Part shown: one piece after another, positions 15,837 through 53,865 of the stretch
How positions within the stretch are numbered: position 1 is the first letter of the stretch
Layout: each line of letters starts with the position of its first letter
DNA from: Pyrinomonadaceae bacterium
GTDB lineage: Bacteria > Acidobacteriota > Blastocatellia > Pyrinomonadales > Pyrinomonadaceae
Assembly (NCBI GenBank): GCA_021228405.1
Contig: JAJQRF010000001.1
Location: forward strand, 1-64,000
Length of the DNA stretch: 64,000 nucleotides
Direction of reading: 5' to 3'
Notes under the pieces: model-generated
Databases searched by the model: none
The model's input: the letters and a program-made list of their open reading frames with translations, nothing else
Told to the model about the DNA's origin: nothing
Position numbers and translations under genes: made by a program

Positions 15837-16015
15837 ATCGATTTACGCGAATTTTCTCAAAATTATCTGATTTTCTCCAAATTTATGGATTTTTCGGCAA
15901 ATTTCCGAGATTTTTCACGGATTTATGAGAATTTGCGCAAATTCAGCTGATTTTTCGCAAATTTAGACGATTTTCCTCGAATTTGGCAATTTTTTCGTAA
16001 CTTCATTGATTTAAT
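15837..16015. repeat. Array A: 20-bp degenerate tandem repeat with 10-bp phased T-tracts
   Basis: About nine head-to-tail units of 20 bp. Each unit has two half-units beginning ATTT or TTTT, and the T-tracts fall every 10 bases almost without drift from 15841 to 16011. A typical unit is GATTTTTCGCAAATTTAGAC. Such phasing of A/T tracts with the helix predicts intrinsic bending. It fills the spacer between a GT4 gene and the permease gene. Units differ at many positions, so the array is old or is held by a function that tolerates variation. Confidence 0.8.
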
Positions 16016-25990: not shown

Positions 25991-26080
25991 GAACGCGGAT
26001 TTGGCGAATAAGGCGGATGAACGCAGATTTTTTATTAAATTTATCCGCGCTGATTCGCCCAATCTACCAAATCCGCGCTC
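25991..26080. repeat. Inverted-repeat element, GAACGCGGATT family, copy 1
   Basis: GAACGCGGATTTGGCGAAT at the left end and the inverted ATTCGCCC...AAATCCGCGCTC at the right end form an imperfect long hairpin of about 90 bases. Copies of the same family lie at 44628-44698 and 51998-52087. It occupies the spacer between the acyltransferase and RraB-like genes. Confidence 0.7.
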
Positions 26081-27093: not shown

Positions 27094-27315
27094 TAATTAC
27101 ACGTGTTTTTGTCGATTTTCATCCGTTTTTTAGAATTTCCTTCTGTTAGCGCCGATTTTCACGTGTTTGTGATGATTTTCATCGTGTTTGTGACGATTTT
27201 CATCCGTTTTTAGCGATTTTCATCCGTTCGCGGCGATTTTCACTCTGTCGGGGACGATTTTCATCCGTTTTTGGCGATTTTCACCTGTTGGCGGCGAATT
27301 TCATTTATTTTTGTC
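27094..27315. repeat. Array B: 20/21-bp degenerate tandem repeat, GATTTTC type
   Basis: Ten head-to-tail units. The core GATTTTC (GAATTTC in two) starts at 27114, 27133, 27154, 27174, 27195, 27215, 27235, 27256, 27276 and 27296, so the spacing alternates between 20 and 21 with one 19. The consensus is about GTTNNNGRCGATTTTCAYCY. It lies between the acidic-protein gene and the lysS tail fragment. The 20/21 alternation keeps the units on the same face of the helix. Confidence 0.85.
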
Positions 27316-27482
27316 AAATAAAAAAAGTTCCCCGCCATTTCAATGAGTGGTGGCGCAAAGCGACGGGGTGATTATAAAACGAATGAAATTTCGACTGATT
27401 AAATTTAAATAAATCAACTTCGTCCGCAAAGTGAGAGAAAACTTCCCTTCCTGAAAAAGGAGGAAAGCCTTTTTCCTAATTA
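27316..27482. other. Spacer with a terminator-like hairpin
   Basis: GAAAAAGG (27453-27460) and CCTTTTTC (27468-27475) can pair and are followed by T-rich sequence on the minus strand, just after the end of the lysS tail fragment. Further left, 27335-27375 holds a GC-rich segment with CCCCGCC and GACGGGG arms. No gene seen. Confidence 0.4.
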
Positions 27483-27597
27483 TTATTCTGCCGTTTCTTT
27501 TTCTTCTTCTTTGACAAGGGGACGCATATGCGGAAAAGTAATCACGTCGCGGATCGAATGGTTGTTGGTCAAAAGCATCACGAGGCGGTCGATGCCG
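27483..27597 (-). pseudogene. Detached C-terminal tail of a lysyl-tRNA synthetase gene
   Basis: The frame reads [27 protein letters not shown], then a charged tail ending KETAE and a stop. This is class II motif 3 and the C-terminus of LysRS. At DNA level 27520-27597 matches the end of the intact lysS (28297-28374) at about nine in ten positions. Upstream of the match the frame is unrelated and overlaps the lipoprotein gene, so no complete synthetase exists here. It looks like the original 3' end of lysS, cut off when the 0.8-kb segment carrying the lipoprotein gene and a second tail was inserted, or else the product of a partial duplication. Confidence 0.8.
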
Positions 27598-27628
27598 CAG
27601 GTGAAGTGCAACTGTTTGGTGAAACGAT

Positions 27629-28126
27629 TTATTTCGGGTTTTCCGGCAATCTCTGAGCAAATTCGGTCATTGAGAAACTTGCGCATTTCAGTTCGTCATT
27701 CTCGACAATAACCGAAACTTGTAAAGAGTATTTTCCCATTTCCGCCTTATCGGTTTTGGCTGAATAAATAAACTTTCTCATCGGCTTTTTCGTGCCGTCG
27801 GGAAATGTCCAATAACCTATTTCTTCAGACTTATATTTTGTTTCGATCACTTTTCCAAAATGTGAATCTAATTTTTCGAGGGTCTTTGGAATTTCATCAG
27901 AAGAATAGGTTTTGCGAAACAGTCCCGTCATTTTTGAATAAAGTTCCTGATTTTTTTCCGCTATTATTTCTTCGACCGTTTCATTACTGAATTCAAACGC
28001 TTTTTCACGATCTATCGCCAACCCCATTTTCATATCAGGATCGTTTTCGCCCGTTCCGAAGTTAACGGAACAGCCGATGTTTAGTAACAGAAATGTGAGC
28101 GATAGTAAAATAATTATCTTACGCAT
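27629..28126 (-). CDS. Small lipoprotein lying between two lysS tails
   Basis: 165 residues from the ATG at 28126. The signal [20 protein letters not shown] has a lipobox ending in Cys19, so the protein is likely lipid-anchored. The mature part is about 145 residues with no family I recognise: a helical section ([19 protein letters not shown]-like) followed by beta-rich sequence with [19 protein letters not shown]. It lies between the intact lysS and the detached lysS tail, which points to arrival by insertion or tandem duplication. Confidence 0.65.
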
Positions 28127-28161
28127 ATTTATTAGAATCTGGATCATAAATGATTGGAGCA

Positions 28162-28231
28162 AGTTGAGAGTCCCGCGTTTACGCGGCTTTTCGCGCAAGC
28201 TTTTGCCGCCTGAAGGCGCGACTCTCAACGC
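28162..28231. repeat. Inverted-repeat element, GAGTCCCGC family, copy 2
   Basis: GTTGAGAGTCCCGCG on the left pairs with CGCGACTCTCAAC on the right, with inner sequence GCCGCCTGAAGG shared with the copies at 26611 and 39140. It lies between the lipoprotein gene and lysS. Confidence 0.72.
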
Positions 28232-28283: not shown

Positions 28284-30221
28284 CTATTTACTTTCAGGAC
28301 GCATATGCGGGAAAAGAATCACGTCGCGAATCGAATGTTTGTTTGTCAAAAGCATCACGAGGCGGTCGATGCCGATTCCGATGCCGGCGGCGGGCGGCAT
28401 TCCGTAACTCAGCGCGCGAATGTAATCTTCGTCCAAAACCATCGCTTCCGCGTCGCCGCCTTCGCGTTCCTTCATCTGATCGACAAAACGCTCGAACTGT
28501 TCCTGCGGGTCGTTCAATTCCGAAAACCCGTTCGCGCATTCCATCCCGTTAATAAAAAGCTCGAACCGCTCGGCAATCTGCGGATTTTCAGGCGAAGCTT
28601 TCGACAAAGGCGAAATCGATTTCGGGTAATCAATGATGAATGTTGGCTGGATTAGATATTCTTCAACAAAATCTTCAAATACTGAAACAATATCCTTAGA
28701 CCTTTCTATTTCCGTTAAGTTTATTCCCGCAAATTTTTTAACGATTTCTTCCCATTTACTATCAATTAATTTATCAGCTTCTTCTTTGCTTAATTTCTCT
28801 TTTGGTTCATCTCCGCCGTCGAAATAATAAACTTCGTTATATAATTCATTTTCAATCCACCATAAAAAATCACTAAGCACTCTGATGTTTGCGCCTTTGT
28901 CTAACCAGTTGCTTATTTCTTCTGTTATATAAGATTTCGCTATTCCACTTTGGCGAGCAATAGCTTCTTTCATTGTCAATCGTTCAAACTTGGAGAAATC
29001 AATGATATTTACAGCTTCGTTGAGTATAATTCCATCCATTTCAAGAACAAATTTTTGAGAAACACCCTTATATTTCACTTGCAAACTTCCGCCTGTCGCT
29101 TTTTGCACCGATTCTTTGATCATCGCTTCGGCGAAATCCATCATTCCGTTGACATCCATATAGGCGCAATAGAATTCGAGCATCGTAAATTCGGGATTGT
29201 GTTTATACGACAAACCTTCGTTGCGGAAATTGCGGTTGAGTTCGTAAACCTTTTCAAAACCGCCGACCGTCAGGCGTTTGAGATAAAGTTCGGGCGCGAT
29301 GCGCGCATAAAGCGGAATTCCCAACGCTTCGTGAAAAGTTTCAAACGGAGTCGCCGCCGCGCCCGTCGCTTTCGGCGTGAGCATCGGCGTTTCGACTTCG
29401 ATGTAACCCGCATCGTCGAGAAATCGGCGCATTCCGCTAATCAATTTCGCCCGCCGCTCGAAAACTTCGCGCGTCGTCAAACCTTCGTGTTCGACCTGAA
29501 GGCTCGACGCGATGAGATCGGCATAACGGTAACGGCGGCGCAGTTCGGGATCAGCAATGCCGTGCATCTTGTCGGGCATCGGGAGCAGAGCTTTTGAAAG
29601 AAACTGAAACGTTTCGACGTGCACCGAAAGTTCGCCCGTGTTGGTCAAAAACAAAAATCCTTCCGCGCCGACAAAATCGCCGTGATCGAGAAGTTTGAAA
29701 ACTTCCCAACCGTCAATAGTGGTCGGTGGTCGGTGATCGGCGGTCGGTTCATTTTCTTCATTCTGACCACTGACCACTGACCACTGACCACTATTATAAA
29801 TGGCTTTTGCATCATCGCGCCGAACGTAAATCTGCAAACGATTAATGCCGTCGCTCAGGTGAACGAACGCCGCTTTGCCCATCACACGCGGCGGAACGGC
29901 GAGGCGACCCGAAATCCGTGCATTGCCAAAGGCTTTTAGTTTTTCATTGAGTTGCGCCTTTAATTCTTGGTCGGGCTTTTCGCCTTCGGGCGTTGCGTCT
30001 TTAAGTTGTTTGACGATTTCCGCGACAGGCGCAAACTTCAAAAGATTCGAGATCGTATCTTCAACTCCCGAAATCTTCGAGCGTTCGTATTTATTCGGAT
30101 AAGAATTTCCGATCAGAGCTTCCAACGCCTTCAAATGCTCGACGCGCGCCTGCACCTGATCGTTGTCTTCGATAATTTCCGCTTCAATGATTGTTTTTGT
30201 GTTCGTATTCGCAATAGACAT
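28284..30221 (-). CDS. lysS: Lysyl-tRNA synthetase, class II, with two insertions
   Basis: 645 residues from the ATG at 30221, clearly longer than the roughly 500 of typical bacterial LysRS. The OB-fold anticodon domain (about 90-240) precedes the catalytic core: motif 2 as [22 protein letters not shown] and motif 3 as [28 protein letters not shown]. Extra sequence comes from two places. First, about residues 142-170 are encoded by inverted seven-base repeats (29713-29796, GTCGGTG/TGACCAC type). Second, residues about 377-530 lie in an AT-rich block (28632-29090) and include an unusual segment with [24 protein letters not shown]. It charges tRNA-Lys. A copy of its 3' end is found at 27520-27597. 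Confidence 0.92.
29713..29796. repeat. In-frame inverted heptamer repeats inside lysS
   Basis: The left arm is built of GGTCGGT-like and the right arm of ACTGACC-like seven-base units that are complementary to one another. It is read through in frame as GQWSVVSGQ and related residues. It sits in the OB-fold domain of lysS, presumably in a surface loop. Confidence 0.8.
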
Positions 30222-30403
30222 AAAATTATTCGGTTCGTTGTTCGTGGTTCGTTGCCGAATTCGGATTAACGGCTGCCAACTCGTATAACTTACGAATTTA
30301 AAAATTATAAGCGAGCGTTGCAGAGTCGGCAATCAAGATTTTATGAAAGCGTGATTGTTTGTTGCATTAGTAAATCTTAGAATAAATGTTTTGAACAATA
30401 AAA

Positions 30404-38677: not shown

Positions 38678-39025
38678 TTATTCAGACTTTAAATCCTGCA
38701 ATATTCCCGCGATTTGTTCAAATTTTTCGAGCGGGATTTCGTTGAGCAATGTCGGCAAATCCTTTTCGCCCGCGCGCTTCAGACCGTTCAGCGAATGATT
38801 TTCGGAAACGTTCTGCGAAGCGTTCGGCTTCCATTCGAGCAGATCGTTCGGCGTGCAGTTCAACGCCAGACACAGTGCCTCGAGCTGTTCGAGTTTGACG
38901 ATAAAAGGCTCATCAACGATGACCTTCCGGGCGGTCGCTTTGATAAATCCGATACTCCGTAAAAATTCATAATGATTGTCCACACCGCGCAACCGCATTA
39001 CTCTTTTCACATTTAAATAAAGCAT
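38678..39025 (-). CDS. XRE-type helix-turn-helix regulator
   Basis: 115 residues. MLYLNVKRVMRLRGVDNHYEFLRSIGFIKATARKVIVDEPFIVKLEQLEALCLALNCTPNDLLEW matches a Cro/C1-type domain in which the second helix pair is IKLEQLEALCLALNCTPNDLL. The C-terminal half is polar with a last amphipathic helix (LEKFEQIAGILQDL). It lies upstream of the toxin-antitoxin pair on the same strand (73-base gap), so it may regulate it. Confidence 0.75.
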   Translation of the reverse strand: MLYLNVKRVMRLRGVDNHYEFLRSIGFIKATARKVIVDEPFIVKLEQLEALCLALNCTPNDLLEWKPNASQNVSENHSLNGLKRAGEKDLPTLLNEIPLEKFEQIAGILQDLKSE

Positions 39026-39235: not shown

Positions 39236-39424
39236 ACTCATATGGACTGTGGCGTTTCCATCTGGACTGTCGCATTTCCATCTGGACTGTCGTATTTTCA
39301 TCTGGACTATGGCGTTTCCGTCTGGACTGTTTTGTTTTCGTCTGGACTATAGTGTTTTCATATAGACTGTGCCGTTTTCGTATAGCCTGTGCCAAGCTCG
39401 TTTAGACTCTAAGATTTCCATTTT
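39236..39424. repeat. Array C: exact 20-bp period tandem repeat, TCTGGACTGT type
   Basis: Nine units of exactly 20 bases. The GGACTGT element or its variant starts at 39244, 39264, 39284, 39304, 39324, 39344, 39364, 39384 and 39404. A typical unit is CATCTGGACTGTCGCATTTC. The middle units are the most alike and the last two are decayed. It lies between the XRE gene and the carboxypeptidase-regulatory-domain gene, both on the minus strand, ending only about 10 bases from the latter's stop. Confidence 0.88.
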
Positions 39425-40482: not shown

Positions 40483-43350
40483 ATGAATAGAACTCTGCGT
40501 ATCTATTTCGTTTTGCTGTTTACATTTATTTTCAGTATTTCCGTTTTTGCGCAATCGCAAGCGACGACGGGCTTGATTCAAGGCACGGTGACAGACCCGA
40601 ACGGCGCATTTATCGCGGGCGCAAGCATCAACGTCAAAAATACAGGCACAGGATTCGAGCGAACCGTCACGAGCAATTCGGACGGTTTTTTTAGTGCGCC
40701 GCTCCTGCCGCTCGGCAAATACCGCATCACGACTTCCGCCTCGGGCTTTACGAATTCCGTGCTTGAGAACGTCGAGGTGTCGGTCGGTCAGACGATCTCT
40801 CTGAAGATCGATATGAAGGTCGGCGGTTCGGTCGAAACGGTCGATGTTTCCGCCGAACCCGAGGGCGTGGAGATCGCCCGCACCGAGCTTTCGACGCAGA
40901 TCAACGAGCGTTCGGTCGAAAATCTGCCGATCAACCGCCGCGATTTTTCGCGTTTCGCGCTTCTAACGCCGGGCGTTTCGATCGTGCAGGGTCCCGACGG
41001 CGACGAGATCACGATCAACGGGCAGAAAGGCATCCAAAACAACGTTTCGATCGACGGTGCAGACGCGAACAACCCGTTTTTCGGCGAACAGCGCGGCGGT
41101 CAGCGTCCGGCGTTTACGATCTCGCTCGAATCCGTCAAGGAATTTCAGGTCGTGCCCGTCGGCGCGTCGGCTGAATTCGGCAGATCAAGCGGCGGATTCA
41201 TCAACGCCGTCACGAAATCGGGCACGAACGAATTTTCGGGTTCGGCGTTCGTCTTCTTCCGCAATCAATCGCTTTCGAGCCAGAATCCCGACGCGGTTGA
41301 CGCGGGACTTCCCGTCGAAGATTTCCGCAATTATCAATTCGGCGGCAACCTCGGCGGACCGATCAAAAGGGACAAGGCGTTTTTCTTCGTCGCCTACGAA
41401 CGCAACGACGGACGCAGTGAAAAACCGAACTCGATCGACCCCGTTCTCGCGAATATTTTCCGAACCCGTTTCAATTCCGTCGAACAAGGCATCATCGAAC
41501 GCACGAACGTTGCCGACGTTTTGCTCGGCAAAGTGGACATCAACGTGGATAAAAACAATCTGCTGACCCTGCGCCACAATTTCAGCCGCGCCGAACAGGT
41601 CAACGGAACGTTCGACGTGCCGACGTGGGGCATCAGCGCGAACGGACGCGAAACCGACAAATCGAACTCGTTCATCGGTCAATTGGTGACGAACATTTCA
41701 TCGAATCTACTCAACGAATTCCGCTTTCAATGGGCGAAAGAAGAGCGTCCGCGCTTTTACGATGGTCCCGATCTGCCCGACACAACCATCGGCACGTTCG
41801 ACGGTTCGATCTCTTACCGTTTCGGTCGCCCGTTCTTTCTGCCCGTTCCGTCAAACGACACGCGCCTCCAGTTTACGGACAATTTCACGATTCTGCGCGG
41901 CAATCATTCGATCAAACTCGGCATCGACTTTAACCGCGTCAACGTTTCGCAGACATTTATCGGCTTTGCACGCGGTCGCTACATCTTTGCCGACGCGACC
42001 ATCGGCGGCGCGATTCAGGGATTCCAGAATTACATCAACGGTGTGAACGCCAACGCGCTTCAGCTTTATCTGCAATTTGCGCCGATCGGCAACCGCACGG
42101 TCGAAGAAGCGGGAACGCAGTCGTTCAACGTTTACGAACCCGGCATTTACGTGCAGGACAACTGGCAGGTGCGCCCTAATCTGACGCTGAATCTCGGTTT
42201 CCGCTGGGAAGGACAATTCGAGCCCGACCCGATCAACAATCCTTCGGCGACGCGTTACGGGCAATTTTTGAGCGATCCGCGTTTCCCGTCCGACGGTTCG
42301 ATTCCCGATTTCACGGACGGTTATTCGCCGCGTCTCGGTCTTTCGTGGTCGCCGGGCAAGGACGGCAAAACCGCGATTCGGCTGGGCGCGGGTATTTACT
42401 ATGCGCGTATTCCGGGGCTTGTGCTGGCAGGACCGCGCAACACGGACGGCGTGATCGCGGGCAACATTTTCTTTGCCAATTTCCTTTGCACGGGTGCAGG
42501 TCTGGGCGGTTGCCCCGTTTTTCCGGGCATCGTTCCGACGGCGGGTTTTACGCCGTTCAATCCGGGCATCGCGGTCTTTGCGAAGGGATTTAAAAATCCG
42601 CGCACGATTCAATACAGCGCGAGCGTCGAACGCGAGATATTTAAAAACACGTCTCTGCTCGTCGCGTATAATCTCGCCAAATCCGACCGCCTGACGCGCT
42701 TCGTCAACCGCAACGATCCGCGTCTTTACAACGGTGTGGCGATCTTTGAACGCGCCAACGGTTCGGGTGTCGGCGAGATTCGTTCGACGGAAAGCTCGGC
42801 AAAATCGCTTTATCAGGGCTTGACGCTGACGCTCAACCGCCGCTTTGCGAACCGCTTCCAGTTTCAGGCGAATTATCTACTGTCATTCGACAAATCCGAC
42901 GACGACAACGAACGCGACCCGTTCACGTTCCGCTACGCCGACCCGCGCGATCTGAGCGCGGAATACAACTGGTCAGACCGCGACCAACGCCACCGTTTCA
43001 ACGCTTTTGCGACAATCATCGCACCGTATGACATCAATATTTCGCCGATCGTCCAGATTCGTTCGGCACAGCCGACCTCGGTGACGAATCGCGGGACGTT
43101 CCCGAATCTGGTCAAACGCAACACTCTGCGGCTCGAAAACGAATTCTTTACGTTCGACATCCGCACGTCGAAGGCGTTCAAATTCACGGAAAAAGTTTCG
43201 CTCGAAGCGATCTTTGAAGCGTTCAACCTCTTCAACAACCGCAACCAACGAAGCCTTCCGCGTCCGCTCACGTTCAACTTCGACGGCACGGTTTCCGCCG
43301 GCTTCGGCGAACCGCGCCAAGCGCAGTTAGGCTTAAAGTTGAAATTCTAA
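40483..43350 (+). CDS. Oar-like TonB-dependent receptor with carboxypeptidase-regulatory domain
   Basis: 955 residues from the ATG at 40483, supported by GAGGAG six bases upstream; a TTG 14 codons earlier lacks a ribosome-binding site. A signal peptide (ending FAQ) precedes a regulatory-like domain (GLIQGTVTDPNGAFIAGASINVKNTGTGFERTV). The plug follows (INRRDFSRFALLTPGVSI, VSIDGADANNPFFGEQRGG, PVGASAEFGRSSGGFINAVTKSGTNEFSG), then a barrel ending RQAQLGLKLKF. It is of the same type as 20175-23438 but shorter and only distantly alike. Substrate unknown. Confidence 0.9.
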   Translation: MNRTLRIYFVLLFTFIFSISVFAQSQATTGLIQGTVTDPNGAFIAGASINVKNTGTGFERTVTSNSDGFFSAPLLPLGKYRITTSASGFTNSVLENVEVSVGQTISLKIDMKVGGSVETVDVSAEPEGVEIARTELSTQINERSVENLPINRRDFSRFALLTPGVSIVQGPDGDEITINGQKGIQNNVSIDGADANNPFFGEQRGGQRPAFTISLESVKEFQVVPVGASAEFGRSSGGFINAVTKSGTNEFSGSAFVFFRNQSLSSQNPDAVDAGLPVEDFRNYQFGGNLGGPIKRDKAFFFVAYERNDGRSEKPNSIDPVLANIFRTRFNSVEQGIIERTNVADVLLGKVDINVDKNNLLTLRHNFSRAEQVNGTFDVPTWGISANGRETDKSNSFIGQLVTNISSNLLNEFRFQWAKEERPRFYDGPDLPDTTIGTFDGSISYRFGRPFFLPVPSNDTRLQFTDNFTILRGNHSIKLGIDFNRVNVSQTFIGFARGRYIFADATIGGAIQGFQNYINGVNANALQLYLQFAPIGNRTVEEAGTQSFNVYEPGIYVQDNWQVRPNLTLNLGFRWEGQFEPDPINNPSATRYGQFLSDPRFPSDGSIPDFTDGYSPRLGLSWSPGKDGKTAIRLGAGIYYARIPGLVLAGPRNTDGVIAGNIFFANFLCTGAGLGGCPVFPGIVPTAGFTPFNPGIAVFAKGFKNPRTIQYSASVEREIFKNTSLLVAYNLAKSDRLTRFVNRNDPRLYNGVAIFERANGSGVGEIRSTESSAKSLYQGLTLTLNRRFANRFQFQANYLLSFDKSDDDNERDPFTFRYADPRDLSAEYNWSDRDQRHRFNAFATIIAPYDINISPIVQIRSAQPTSVTNRGTFPNLVKRNTLRLENEFFTFDIRTSKAFKFTEKVSLEAIFEAFNLFNNRNQRSLPRPLTFNFDGTVSAGFGEPRQAQLGLKLKF

Positions 43351-43355
43351 TTTAA

Positions 43356-43430
43356 GTGGATAACGGATAGTTGATAGTTGATAACTGTTTTTTCACTATC
43401 AACTATCCGTTATCCACTATCCGTTATCAA
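43356..43430. repeat. Heptamer repeats forming a perfect 23-bp hairpin
   Basis: 43356-43378 and 43395-43417 are exact inverted copies over 23 bases, built of GGATAAC/GGATAGT/TGATAGT units and their complements. The loop is 16 bases. Further units continue to 43430. It begins 6 bases after the receptor stop codon and may also act as a terminator. Confidence 0.82.
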
Positions 43431-43679
43431 AAAACTTCTTTACAATTCAAAAATAATAATTTATATTGCTTTGCATCAATAAATGAAAGCTCCGACCGTT
43501 TAGCCGTGACGGTAAAATCAGCTTCTTGATGCCCGAAACGGCAGACGGAAACGCTTGCGTTCATTCGATACGTTTACACAATCGTCGAATCGTGCGAACG
43601 ATTCTTTACCCGATCCCGAACGCGATGCCAAACACACGTTTCAACTTTTCGGAAACACCGCGCAACTTGCAAGCAGCGC
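43431..43679. other. Spacer before array D, no gene supported
   Basis: An open frame runs from 43526 through the array, but its second half only reads the repeat. I see no ribosome-binding site and no recognisable protein in the first half. Confidence 0.4.
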
Positions 43680-43902
43680 AAAACACCGTGCAAGTGCCTC
43701 GGTGCGGCTTGCAAGCGTCGTGGTGCGCCGTGCAAGTGCCTCGGTGCGCGTTTTTTCGTCGTGGTGCGGCTTGCAAGTGCCTCGGTGCGGACTGCAAGCG
43801 TCGCGGTGCGCCGTTTAGTGACGTGGTGCGGACTGCAAGCGTCGTGGTGCGGGATTTTTTAACGTGGTGCGCCGTGCAAGTGTCGCAGTGCGGATTTTTT
43901 CA
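43680..43902. repeat. Array D: 20/21-bp GC-rich tandem repeat, GGTGCG type
   Basis: Ten units; GGTGCG (AGTGCG in the last) starts at 43701, 43722, 43743, 43763, 43784, 43805, 43825, 43846, 43866 and 43887. Spacings are 21, 21, 20, 21, 21, 20, 21, 20, 21. A typical unit is GCAAGTGCCTCGGTGCGGCTT. Two sub-types (GCAAGTGCCTC and GCAAGCGTCGT) tend to alternate. Some units have the left half replaced by a T-run. It lies between the receptor and a coiled-coil gene on the same strand. Confidence 0.88.
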
Positions 43903-43948
43903 ACCCTAAATTACTTTAAATCAATAGAAAACGGAGGAATTTAATAAT

Positions 43949-44611
43949 ATGCCGAGCAGATTTAACCGCGAAGCGGAAAGAAACATTAGAACAAACGATT
44001 TTTTACAGGAAAACAAGACCGATTTTACCGCGAACGCATTTGTAACAGGCAAGATCGCCGAGCTGAAAACCGAACTCGAAACGATGGGCGATAAGCGCGA
44101 AGAACAGATTTCGAGCGACGGCGGTGCGCGACAGAATTACGATATTGCCGAAGAAGCGAACGATTCTTTGAAGGAATTAATGCAGGATGTTGCCGATCTT
44201 GCCGTCACAATGGGCGACGACATCGAAGGCATCGAGGAGAAATTCCGCTTTACGCGAACAGGCGGAAAACGCGCCCGCCTTGCCCGCGCACGCGCCTTTG
44301 CAACGGATGCTTTGGAACACCGCGCGATGTTTGTCGAACGCGGACTCGAATCAAATTTCATCGACGAATTAAACGCGCGAGCCGACGCGCTCGAACAAGC
44401 CCTGGAAAATGCCGTGTCGAAAACTGCCGCCCGCGTCGGTGCGGTCGAATCGAAAATGCAATCACACAAAAAGCAAAAGAAGATCATCGAACAGCTCGAC
44501 CCGATCATCCGCCGCCATTACCGCGATAATCCGGCAAAGCTCGCCGCGTGGGAATTTGCCAGCAAAATCCAACGCGACGAACAACCGAAAACCAAACCGC
44601 CGACCGCTTAA
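43949..44611 (+). CDS. Coiled-coil protein of unknown function
   Basis: 220 residues, with a good ribosome-binding site (GGAGG) before the ATG. Nearly all helical and charged: FVTGKIAELKTELETMGDKREEQ, a long acidic helix with LKELMQDVADLAVTMGDDIEGIEEKF, then an Arg/Ala-rich stretch and FIDELNARADALEQALENAVSKTAARVGAVESKM. No signal peptide, so it should be cytoplasmic. I do not recognise the family. It lies alone between array D and an inverted-repeat element. Confidence 0.6.
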   Translation: MPSRFNREAERNIRTNDFLQENKTDFTANAFVTGKIAELKTELETMGDKREEQISSDGGARQNYDIAEEANDSLKELMQDVADLAVTMGDDIEGIEEKFRFTRTGGKRARLARARAFATDALEHRAMFVERGLESNFIDELNARADALEQALENAVSKTAARVGAVESKMQSHKKQKKIIEQLDPIIRRHYRDNPAKLAAWEFASKIQRDEQPKTKPPTA

Positions 44612-44627
44612 AGATCGTCGGAATGGT

Positions 44628-44698
44628 GAACGCGGAGCGGGCAGATCGACACGGACAAATCAATTAACAATTCGTTTAAATTTGCCCGATTCGCGTGG
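44628..44698. repeat. Inverted-repeat element, GAACGCGGATT family, copy 2
   Basis: The left end GAACGCGGAGCGGGCAGATC and the right end AAATTTGCCCGATTCGCGTGG form an imperfect hairpin. The outer and inner motifs match the copies at 25991 and 51998. Confidence 0.65.
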
Positions 44699-44718
44699 AC
44701 AAAATTATCGACAAAGGT

Positions 44719-44784
44719 GTCAGCAGCCCGCGCGTAAGCAAAGGCTGAAAAATGTTAACCCTTGCTTACGCGCGGGCTACTGAC
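44719..44784. repeat. 26-bp inverted repeat with short loop
   Basis: 44719-44744 and 44759-44784 match as inverted copies at 24 of 26 positions (GTCAG.AGCCCGCGCG...); the loop is 14 bases. It is directly upstream of the TPR gene, so if transcribed it would form a very stable structure in the leader. Confidence 0.82.
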
Positions 44785-44836
44785 ATATCGCAGTTTTTTG
44801 TTAATAATTAATCTGTCCATCTGCTTACAGACAATT

Positions 44837-46708
44837 ATGACCAACGCAATCAATTTAGACGGCGACGATAATATCGTCGTTCAAGGTTCCGAAAACGTAA
44901 ATATTACCGTCAACAAGATTCTCTCGAAATCGCACGACTACAATACAATGCTCGGCGAATTGCGCGAACAGCAGGAAATATTCGACGGCATCTCGGAAGA
45001 AAATTTGAGTCTGCGACTGAAAATCAGCACAAAGATAAATCAGTTAAACGACAGCATCGAACAATTCAAACGCGAGATCATCCAATTAGCCGAAACCTTC
45101 GACAAGCTCGAAGTAAACAGCGAACGACTTCAGCAAGCCCGCGAATTCTTTGAAAAAGGCGAGATCGGCGAAGCCCGCGCCCTGCTCAACGACGACAACG
45201 AAAGACTCGCCGACGAAGAAACCCAACTCTGGCGCAAACGCGACTATTACGAAACCGAGATCGAACCCAAACTAATCGCCAAAGCCGAAGAACGCTATAT
45301 CCAAGCCTTACTCAGCCGAACCGATTACGCCAACCCGAACTGGTTCGCCGACACCCGCAACTATTTCAACCTTTCGATCAAAAGCTACCCGACCAAAGAT
45401 AATATTTTTCAATTTGCATACTTTCTCAAAGACCATAATCAATTTGATGAAGCCGAAAAATATTATTCAAAATATCTGAATGATTTTTCAAACCAAATCT
45501 CGGAAAACGAATACGCAGATGCCTTGAACAATCTGGCTAATTTGCATCGAAATCAAACCCGTTATGACGAAGCCTTGACGGAATTTGAAGAAGCGTTGGC
45601 AATCAGACGCAAGTTGGCGGAAACGAATCCGAACACCTTTTTGCCTGATGTGGCGATGACCTTGAACAATCTGGCTATTTTGCATCAAGCTCAAAACCGC
45701 TATGACGAAGCGTTGAGTGAATATGAAGAAGCCTTGACAATCTATCGCAAGTTAGCGGAAACCAATCCGCATACTTATTTACCTAATGTTGCCACGACCT
45801 TGAACAATCTGGCTGTTTTGCATCAAGCTCAAAACCGCTATGACGAAGCGTTGACGGAATTTGAAGAAGCGTTGGCAATCAGACGCAAGTTGGCGGAAAC
45901 GAATCCGAACACCTTTTTGCCTGATGTGGCGACGACCTTGAACAATCTGGCTATTTTGCATCAAGCTCAAAACCGCTATGACGAAGCGTTGCGTGAATAT
46001 GAAGAAGCCTTGGCAATCTATCGCAAGTTGGCGGAAACCAATCCGCAGACCTTTTTGCCTTTTGTTGCCACGACCTTGAACAATCTGGCTATTTTGCATG
46101 CCGATCAAAACCGTTATGACGAAGCCTTGAGCGAATATGAAGAAGCCTTGGCAATCTATCGCAAGTTGGCGGAAACCAATCCGCATACTTATTTGCCTTT
46201 TGTGGCGATGACCTTGAACAATCTGGCTGTTTTGCATGCCGATCAAAACCGCTATGACGAAGCCTTGAGCGAATATGAAGAAGCCTTGGCAATCTATCGC
46301 AAGTTGGCGGAAACCAATCCGCATACTTATTTGCCCGATGTGGCGATGACCTTGAACAATCTGGCTCTTTTGCATCAAGCTCAAAACCGCTATGACGAAG
46401 CCTTATGCGAATATGGAGAAGCTTTAGAGATTAGAGAATCATTGGCGGAAACCAATCCAATGGTTTATAAAGTTAAAGTTGCTCAAACCAATTATAATCT
46501 GGCAATACTTTATCAAGACGATTTGCCTGATCGTGATAAATCTATTTCGTATGTTTTAACGACTATTGCGATTCTTTTAGAAATCTCGGATGTAGTTATT
46601 TATACAAGGAAATATTTGGAAGCCTCTATTAACATTCTGAAAAAATGGGGTTTGAGCGATGAAGAAATTGACCGAATGATCGCGGAAAAGATGAAAGAAA
46701 GTGAGTAA
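44837..46708 (+). CDS. Tetratricopeptide protein with seven near-identical 46-residue repeats
   Basis: 623 residues from the ATG at 44837. The start INLDGDDNIVVQGSENVNITVNKIL is a short beta element of the kind (DGDNIVIQGV...ITVN) often seen at the N-terminus of multi-domain bacterial conflict or signalling proteins; this is an inference from resemblance. A charged helical region follows (about 45-160). Then come kinesin-light-chain-type TPRs of 46 residues (NNLAILHQAQNRYDEAL.EYEEALAIYRKLAETNP) whose DNA starts at 45524, 45662, 45800, 45938, 46076, 46214 and 46352, exactly 138 bp apart. The copies differ little, so they were multiplied or homogenised recently. No signal peptide. Partner unknown. 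Confidence 0.8.
   Translation: MTNAINLDGDDNIVVQGSENVNITVNKILSKSHDYNTMLGELREQQEIFDGISEENLSLRLKISTKINQLNDSIEQFKREIIQLAETFDKLEVNSERLQQAREFFEKGEIGEARALLNDDNERLADEETQLWRKRDYYETEIEPKLIAKAEERYIQALLSRTDYANPNWFADTRNYFNLSIKSYPTKDNIFQFAYFLKDHNQFDEAEKYYSKYLNDFSNQISENEYADALNNLANLHRNQTRYDEALTEFEEALAIRRKLAETNPNTFLPDVAMTLNNLAILHQAQNRYDEALSEYEEALTIYRKLAETNPHTYLPNVATTLNNLAVLHQAQNRYDEALTEFEEALAIRRKLAETNPNTFLPDVATTLNNLAILHQAQNRYDEALREYEEALAIYRKLAETNPQTFLPFVATTLNNLAILHADQNRYDEALSEYEEALAIYRKLAETNPHTYLPFVAMTLNNLAVLHADQNRYDEALSEYEEALAIYRKLAETNPHTYLPDVAMTLNNLALLHQAQNRYDEALCEYGEALEIRESLAETNPMVYKVKVAQTNYNLAILYQDDLPDRDKSISYVLTTIAILLEISDVVIYTRKYLEASINILKKWGLSDEEIDRMIAEKMKESE
45524..46489 (+). repeat. 138-bp tandem repeats within the TPR gene
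   Basis: Seven copies with an exact 138-bp period. The stretch TTGAACAATCTGGCT opens each copy without change. Variation is limited mostly to a few codons (HQAQ/HADQ/HRNQ, AIRRK/AIYRK, NTFLPDV/HTYLPFV). Confidence 0.9.
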
Positions 46709-46715
46709 ATCGTTC

Positions 46716-46792
46716 CGTGTTCAGAGTTCAAAGTGCGTTCCGCGTTTGGACTTCGCTTAGTGATTCAAACTGAAGTTTGAACTGCGGAACAC
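46716..46792. repeat. Inverted repeat after the TPR gene
   Basis: CGTGTTC...GTTCAAA on the left and TTTGAAC...GGAACACG on the right are inverted. Inside lies the palindrome TCAAACTGAAGTTTGA (46765-46780), related to the inverted repeat at 15773-15829. Confidence 0.55.
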
Positions 46793-46840
46793 GTTTAGGC
46801 TTCAAAATTATGGTCTGTTGAAAATAAATCTAACAATCGC

Positions 46841-47005
46841 GGCTGTGCCGCCCGATGTGCGGAAAGGCTTTGCCTTTCCGAGAGATTCTTCCCAGATTTC
46901 TGAGGCTTTGCCTCGCTTTTAGTCTGATTCGGAGGCGAAGCCTCAAATCGTTAGAGAGCGATTTACGGAAAGGCAAAGCCTTTCCGCACATCGGCGGGCA
47001 AAGCC
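46841..47005. repeat. Nested palindromic element with a perfect 29-bp inverted repeat
   Basis: 46852-46880 and 46966-46994 are exact inverted copies of 29 bases, 85 bases apart. Each arm is itself a hairpin (GGAAAGGC-TTT-GCCTTTCC). Between them are two more small hairpins of the same build: GAGGC-TTT-GCCTC at 46902-46914 and GAGGC-GAA-GCCTC at 46932-46944. The outer ends add a weaker GGCTNTGCC/GGCAAAGCC pair. It could fold as a multi-armed structure. Confidence 0.85.
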
Positions 47006-47101
47006 CTTTCAGAACTTTTATGTTAATTTTATTTTATTACCGTTTCGGCAGCTTTACCTTTCATCAGCCGGCTTTCAGAACTTTTATGTTAATTTTATTT
47101 T
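47006..47101. repeat. 30-bp perfect direct repeat
   Basis: 47006-47035 and 47072-47101 are identical (each begins CTTTCAGAACTTTTATGTTA and ends in an AT-rich run). They are separated by 36 bases and directly abut the nested palindrome. Confidence 0.85.
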
Positions 47102-47131
47102 GAACAAAACTTTAGTTTGAATTGACTAAAC

Positions 47132-47166
47132 AAAAGGTCGCCGAACTTATTCGGCGACCTTTTTTA
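47132..47166. terminator. Bidirectional terminator
   Basis: AAAAGGTCGCCGAA and TTCGGCGACCTTTT form a 14-bp stem with a 4-base loop. It is close to the stop of the DUF4920 gene on the minus strand. Confidence 0.88.
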
Positions 47167-47185
47167 ACTTTTAATTTTTAACTTT

Positions 47186-53651: not shown

Positions 53652-53700
53652 CGTTAAAATTGATCGACAGTCATTCGTAATAATTCGAGTCAGACGTTGG

Positions 53701-53865
53701 GAATTTGTCGAATTCCGCGGGAATTTGCTAAATTCTCGCGGAATTTGACGATTTCACGCGGAATTTGACGATTTCCCGCGGAATCTGGTAAATTCCCGCG
53801 GAATTCGGCAATTTCCCGCTGTTTTCGGCAAATTCCCGCAGAATTTGACGATTTTTACGGAATCG
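53701..53865. repeat. Array E: exact 20-bp period tandem repeat, GAATTTGACG type
   Basis: Eight full units begin at 53701, 53721, 53741, 53761, 53781, 53801, 53821 and 53841 without any drift; a ninth (GAATCG) is cut. A typical unit is GAATTTGACGATTTCCCGCG. It lies between convergent genes and runs into the last codons of the C25 peptidase gene, whose stop codon (53855-53857) is inside the final unit. Confidence 0.88.

Follow-up and report, generated by a model that had tools for sequence, protein, structure and literature searches.

Within the window, by which we mean the whole analysed stretch of 64,000 nucleotides at positions 1 to 64,000 of the forward strand of contig JAJQRF010000001.1 from a Pyrinomonadaceae bacterium, the interval 43351-47185 had been read as one accessory stretch packed with repeats around two orphan genes. 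That reading lumps unrelated things, and the real discovery in it is a tandem array, array D, together with the gene that follows it at 43949-44611. From the sequence, the pairing has the look of a protein reading a DNA array of its own, in a system so far undescribed. Genes for small unnamed proteins (families A, B and C and a 227-aa protein) follow, on the same strand, about 8-18 tandem units of 20-22 bp, in which a short core is conserved and the rest of the unit is variable. We give an even chance to the proposal that array D and 43949-44611 are a single instance of a recurring gene-plus-array module, and that in each instance the array is bound by the protein beside it or by a dedicated partner. 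A literature search, with most subscription papers and preprints outside its scope, found no account of such arrays. If the proposal is right, it would define a new class of bacterial DNA recognition with fast specificity turnover, fixed geometry and many insulated copies per cell, and would offer natural orthogonal protein-DNA pairs as well as a clear example of how a protein and its binding site diverge together; it would also give three unannotated protein families a likely context.

Family A and the arrays upstream of its genes

The features of the pairing are as follows.

43439..43467, plus strand: promoter-like TTTACA-17-TATATT upstream of array D (consensus scan only)
43663..43903, plus strand: array D, also delimited as 43686-43900 (TRF, repeat finder and unit model)
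43949..44611, plus strand: family A gene, encoding a 220-aa helical-bundle protein of an unnamed family

Array D is made up of some ten strict units of 20-21 bp (periods of 21 and 41 bp), with degenerate units at its 5' end, and the unit is composed of a core, CGYGGTGCG, and 11-12 variable bases. The consensus scan gave three sites like the TTTACA-17-TATATT sequence against 1.5 expected; because this promoter-like site precedes array D, the array may lie in a 5' leader. The description of the stretch as accessory held up. The family A gene is patchy among relatives (14 of 60 genomes, source included), and a 57% orthologue of 43949 in genome G023 is flanked by different genes; the array D unit can be recognized by eye upstream of that orthologue.

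The source genome has 10 copies of family A, the other nine being 26-32% identical to the 43949 protein, and 9 of the 10 genes have an array within 450 bp upstream, with lags of 20-21 bp or multiples, compared with 14 of 374 control genes from the same genome (13 of 373 without 43949; Fisher p 1e-11), where the control gene calls were greedy ORFs and arrays were counted by a self-lag score, thresholded by eye over a background of about 7-18. Across all scored family A genes, meaning intact genes preceded by 400 bp or more of sequence, an array is found upstream in 21/34 and downstream in 1/34, and the lags of all these arrays are again 20-21 bp or multiples. Of the 34 genes, 13 fall below the array threshold; loci below it include L031, L039, L049, L050, L051, L072, L077-L081, L097 and L100, and some of these loci look degenerate by eye.

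The sequence of the unit is private, differing from locus to locus, and the period alone is constant. Over 24 loci, similarity between units is uncorrelated with the identity of the proteins (r=0.04, p=0.34), and therefore either the units turn over fast or there is another reader. The near-orthologues L102 and L104 illustrate the contrast between gene and array: the genes are identical at 660/681 nt (97%) and the promoter and leader at 150/156, while in the arrays the core agrees in 88/104 cells and the other unit positions in 98/169, a difference of which whole-unit gain and loss may explain part.

Pfam, NCBIfam, PADLOC and PHROGs gave nothing specific in favour of a conflict or defence role, PADLOC gave no strong match to the 43949 product, and no DNA-binding domain was recognized in the family. 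The AlphaFold2 model of the 43949 protein (P0002), built from 13 sequences, is all-helical with pLDDT 86 and pTM 0.58, and Foldseek found no significant match to it in the PDB or among viral models; no candidate from the fold searches was a convincing relative, the best (VIA Z 10) being at a level usual for helical bundles. The most conserved positions in the family alignment include W201, F99, A114, F128 and R115. Positions 7, 14, 67, 71, 100, 115, 188, 206 and 209 are repeatedly basic, and a nucleic-acid surface is possible; the source-genome proteins are mostly acidic (pI 5.1-6.4).

Phylum-wide, family A is present in at least 20 of 396 genomes, in several as C-terminal remnants alone, and these counts are lower bounds because the survey scored up to seven candidates per genome. 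Named relatives come from MAGs of Pyrinomonadaceae and other Acidobacteriota, with a single Pseudobdellovibrio MAG and another labelled Akkermansia (MAG labels can be wrong); no family A member was found in viral contigs or plasmids. C-terminal remnants occur in many genomes (L082-L089 and related loci, genus g9), which suggests frequent loss of family A genes. In the upstream regions of L016, L045, L048, L049, L050, L102 and L104, a GGAAGG...CCTTCC-complementary leader recurs before the ribosome-binding site, and it is perhaps a translational control hairpin of family A genes.

Families B and C, unit symmetry and the candidate reader

Genes behind supposed orphan arrays revealed further unnamed small proteins, including families B and C. 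Family B proteins are about 200 aa long, with a helical part and a C-terminal part that is Fn3-like by eye, and 5 of 7 members have arrays. In family C (about 120 aa), an array is present in 13 of the 15 members whose upstream sequence reached 400 bp, a scoring that left out two members with short upstream sequence and several fragments; among added loci, L289, L290 and L291 have an array and L285 has none, and L288 was too short upstream to score. Pfam and NCBIfam gave no credible match for either family. An hhalign comparison (probability 70, E 4e-5) matches the helical part of B to the C-terminal half of A, which is suggestive of homology between these two families, and homology of A with C or of B with C is unsupported. 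One 227-aa protein is also preceded by an array. The hosts of these protein-array pairs are soil bacteria, plus one cyanobacterium, Nostoc sp. UHCC 0926, whose plasmid pn1 carries the family C locus L291 (NZ_CP117772.1:965932-966303; 33% identity, E 1e-10). A 21-bp array precedes this gene, and another with an identical unit lies about 1.2 kb further upstream. The Nostoc array was placed at 10 sites by BLAST, probably as overlapping pieces, and at 3 by a second search. No family B member was found in plasmids and no family C member in phages.

Units with significant dyad symmetry (p<=0.05) were found in 3/24 arrays beside A, 5/5 beside B, 13/16 beside C and 1/1 beside the 227-aa protein (Fisher p 7e-7), and in 9 of 16 orphan arrays. 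Dyads being common beside B and C and rare beside A, array symmetry follows the neighbouring protein, and this is the strongest pointer to that protein, or a factor travelling with it, as the reader. In 21 arrays, the dyad arms kept Watson-Crick pairing in 85 of 579 cells against 89.6 expected, and RNA-stem covariation was absent overall and clear in one array (L261); since the arms do not covary, DNA half-sites are favoured over RNA stems.

Under the proposed module, each unit would be a DNA site, and the spacing of two helical turns between successive sites would let the product of the adjacent gene or a dedicated partner assemble along one face of the helix, with readers of the B and C type meeting inverted half-sites and those of the A type direct ones. 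The likeliest role would be autoregulation through a multimer seated on the array, and cognate orphan arrays would then serve as extra docking sites, which might titrate the protein or be bridged to the gene. Weighing against the module are the unrecognized DNA-binding domain and generic helical-bundle model of the A protein, the acidity of most source-genome A proteins, the missing correlation between unit and protein similarity, the variable placement of the array with respect to the promoter, the A genes that score no array, the many orphan arrays for which no cognate was found and an array excess that depends largely on one genome.

Plasmid iterons and centromeres of the ParR/parC type are helix-phased tandem DNA sites beside the gene for their binder, with private sequences in coexisting systems. 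The arrays described here share the helix phase and the position beside a gene, which would in this case encode the binder, but they lie mostly on chromosomal-type contigs, with many systems per genome and dispersed cognate arrays, and no Rep or Par domain was matched in Pfam or NCBIfam by the array-linked proteins searched. Type III toxin-antitoxin systems (ToxIN-like) have RNA repeats of about 36 nt and a terminator before the gene. They likewise place tandem repeats upstream of a small gene, whereas the units here are 20-22 bp, and a simple scan found no plus-strand terminator-like site in 43340-44860, and so none between array D and its gene; in a comparison with the ToxN-like fold, the predicted model of the 43949 protein was all-helical and had no significant match. 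TIGR-Tas loci, as described in PMC12045711, have two alternating repeats of 8-12 nt with 9-nt spacers, 36-nt guide RNAs and a Nop-domain protein. They resemble our loci in an array beside a single gene, in locus-private repeats of 5-15 units and in having one direct-repeat and one stem-loop array type (PMC12045711). They differ in that the repeats here are a single unit of 20-22 bp at lags of 20-21 bp and multiples, with no alternation of two repeats, and in that the dyad arms show no covariation. No Nop domain was matched in Pfam by 28 members at E<=0.01 or by P0002 at E<=1, and fold searches gave no significant match.

These comparisons bear on an RNA-level alternative, in which RNA transcribed from the array would bind the neighbouring protein through its repeats, much as type III toxin-antitoxin or TIGR-Tas RNAs do. 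Such a system would suit arrays beside and on the same strand as a small gene, with private repeats in about 5-18 units, as well as the promoter-like site before array D and the array of L073, which extends into the ribosome-binding site. Loci differ, however, in where the array stands: apparently between promoter and gene at some (array D included) and upstream of the promoter at others, where in several relatives it lies upstream of a TATAAT box; and this placement, the lack of covariation in the dyad arms, the fixed two-turn period, which has no explanation at the RNA level, and the Nop result make the alternative improbable.

Arrays across the genome and their relation to neighbouring genes

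Beyond array D, four further arrays were placed in the window.

15841..15984: array, 20-bp period
27102..27304: array B, 20/21 bp
39238..39407: array C, 20 bp, upstream of the minus-strand HTH_26 gene 38678-39025
53698..53854: array, 20 bp, with dyad unit GGAATTTGACAAATTCC, between convergent genes

Over 464 kb of the source contig, strong self-matches fall at 20-21 bp and multiples, with exceptions limited to isolated matches at lags including 12, 18 and 66, plus three at lag 129. There are 52 arrays in 1.264 Mb of the source genome (median 199 bp; 47 under slightly different counting rules), or roughly 235 by extrapolation to 5.72 Mb. Short minus-strand ORFs at 27340-28228, beside array B, resemble by eye, in a C-terminal motif, pieces of the lysyl-tRNA-synthetase-like gene 28284-30332, of which they are perhaps a decayed duplicate.

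The HTH_26 gene beside array C has a paralogue of 41% identity at L032:2209-2556, each of the two lying beside a 20-21-bp array, and these genes are possibly a further array-linked family. They also raise the alternative that the arrays are operators of other regulators, such as HTH genes, and that the small proteins are merely regulated cargo. The L032 paralogue is divergent from a family A gene with the array between them, and the absence of a known DNA-binding domain in the A proteins would fit this arrangement as well; yet an HTH gene is present at two loci only in the compared set, no other regulator recurs beside orphan arrays, private units would demand one regulator for each locus, and the symmetry of the units follows the adjacent family. 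We therefore consider operators of this kind unlikely, if somewhat less so than RNA-level binding.

Most of the source-genome arrays (44 of 52) are orphans. Of the intergenic ones, 2/37 lie in divergent gaps, against 96 of 392 gaps overall, and 11/37 in convergent gaps, against 58/392. Five relatives without families A, B and C had no array in 578.8 kb, and six family A genomes had 54 in 1,864 kb, 47 of them in the source genome and the remainder in G034 (3), G018 (1) and G222 (3), with none in G013 or G026 (60 kb each); the excess in family-positive genomes thus depends largely on one genome. G018, G034 and G222 each have one array of their set directly upstream of the local family A gene. 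In G222, a distant genome, the period is 22 bp instead of 20-21 (G222:C19:5856, 22797 and 137275).

Arrays with a common private unit occur as pairs or small groups. The partner of array D, at G000:C18:363025-363170, is 89% identical to it over 146 bp with dissimilar flanks, the array of L037 is matched by others on C4, C7 and C10, and one orphan pair also shares a leader of about 50 bp. At a score of at least 60, 5/44 orphans match gene-linked arrays of the source genome and 0/44 match foreign ones; at a score of at least 30 the figures are 15/44 and 10/44, and because this lower score separates source from foreign less well, strong matches alone were used. For most of the 44 orphans, no cognate gene-linked array was found.

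This distribution would also suit selfish tandem satellites that spread and decay, with the gene link reflecting hitch-hiking or a mobility partnership, given that orphans avoid divergent gaps and favour convergent ones, that cognate copies stand at unrelated sites and that several genomes retain C-terminal remnants of family A. Most pairs, though, have no common ends or flanks, no family A remnant was found beside source-genome arrays that are without a family A gene, and the core is conserved while other positions change, and we accord satellites the same low probability as RNA-level binding. The gene-plus-array module may belong to something broader, and as a tentative generalization we suggest a cross-phylum class of sequence-private addressing systems, in which small helical families would be paired with fast-evolving arrays, the two-turn geometry would be the sole constant, the family would set the symmetry, and many insulated copies per genome would seed distant cognate arrays to form a private docking or bridging network.

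The TPR gene and the dispersed repeats of the interval

Both genes of the interval exist as they had been read, 43949-44611 encoding 220 aa and 44837-46708 encoding a long TPR protein of 623 aa in which the 138-bp units are near-identical. The suggestion that a coiled-coil protein and a TPR protein form one conflict or signalling module in a repeat hotspot did not survive comparison. The non-TPR N-terminal 221 aa of the TPR protein are found in 4 of 60 genomes (the source, G026 twice, G028, and G037 weakly), and of the three others only G026 has family A, on separate contigs, so that 43949 and 44837 are not one module in the 60 genomes compared. PADLOC gave no family specific to either protein, with generic TPR matches only for the TPR product, and the single-sequence AlphaFold2 model of the TPR N-terminus has pLDDT 61, with residues 1-52 below 50 (low confidence). 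A TPR paralogue of 63% identity lies at G000:C19:107650-110673, with a family C gene and its array some 0.3 kb away, and both source-genome TPR copies consequently adjoin an array-linked small gene. This, with the adjacency of the two genes, is what speaks for a coiled-coil and TPR module, but the genes do not co-occur and, out to about 1.5 kb, the surroundings of the TPR homologues of G026 and G028 contain neither arrays nor family genes, which leaves the idea scarcely tenable.

The other repeats of the interval were re-examined, with the following result.

43355-43378/43395-43418: perfect inverted repeat, 24 nt, heptad-type
44718-44744/44759-44785: inverted repeat, 27 nt, 93%
45518-46422: 138-bp repeats, 6.6 copies, within the TPR gene
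46841-47005: nested palindrome, 40-nt arms, 93%
47006/47072: exact 30-bp direct repeat
47132-47163: terminator-like hairpin

All of the repeats that had been claimed for the interval are present except exact GAACGCGGATT, which is found in the window only at 25991 and 51998 and whose closest match in 43351-47185 is a one-mismatch copy at 44336, inside gene 43949-44611. An Rfam scan gave no match at gathering scores, and matches to plant miRNAs were rejected as hairpin artefacts. In 1.264 Mb of the source genome there are 13 copies of the heptad motif, about 8 of the nested palindrome and 4 of the REP core (about two pairs), and because copies occur elsewhere in the genome, the hairpins and palindromes of the interval are ordinary dispersed repeats outside the module of array D and 43949. 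The hairpin at 44718-44785 is made of two copies of GTAGCCCGCGCGTAAGCAAGGG in opposed orientation, one with two mismatches, and it has the GTAG tag and palindrome, in an inverted pair, of a GTAG REP; the GTAG-REP motif was found 2 times against 0.00 expected in shuffled sequence. The likeness to GTAG REP/RAYT systems (PMC3733652), which concerns this hairpin and not the arrays, lies in the GTAG-tagged inverted pair and in the nine Y1_Tnp genes of the source genome.
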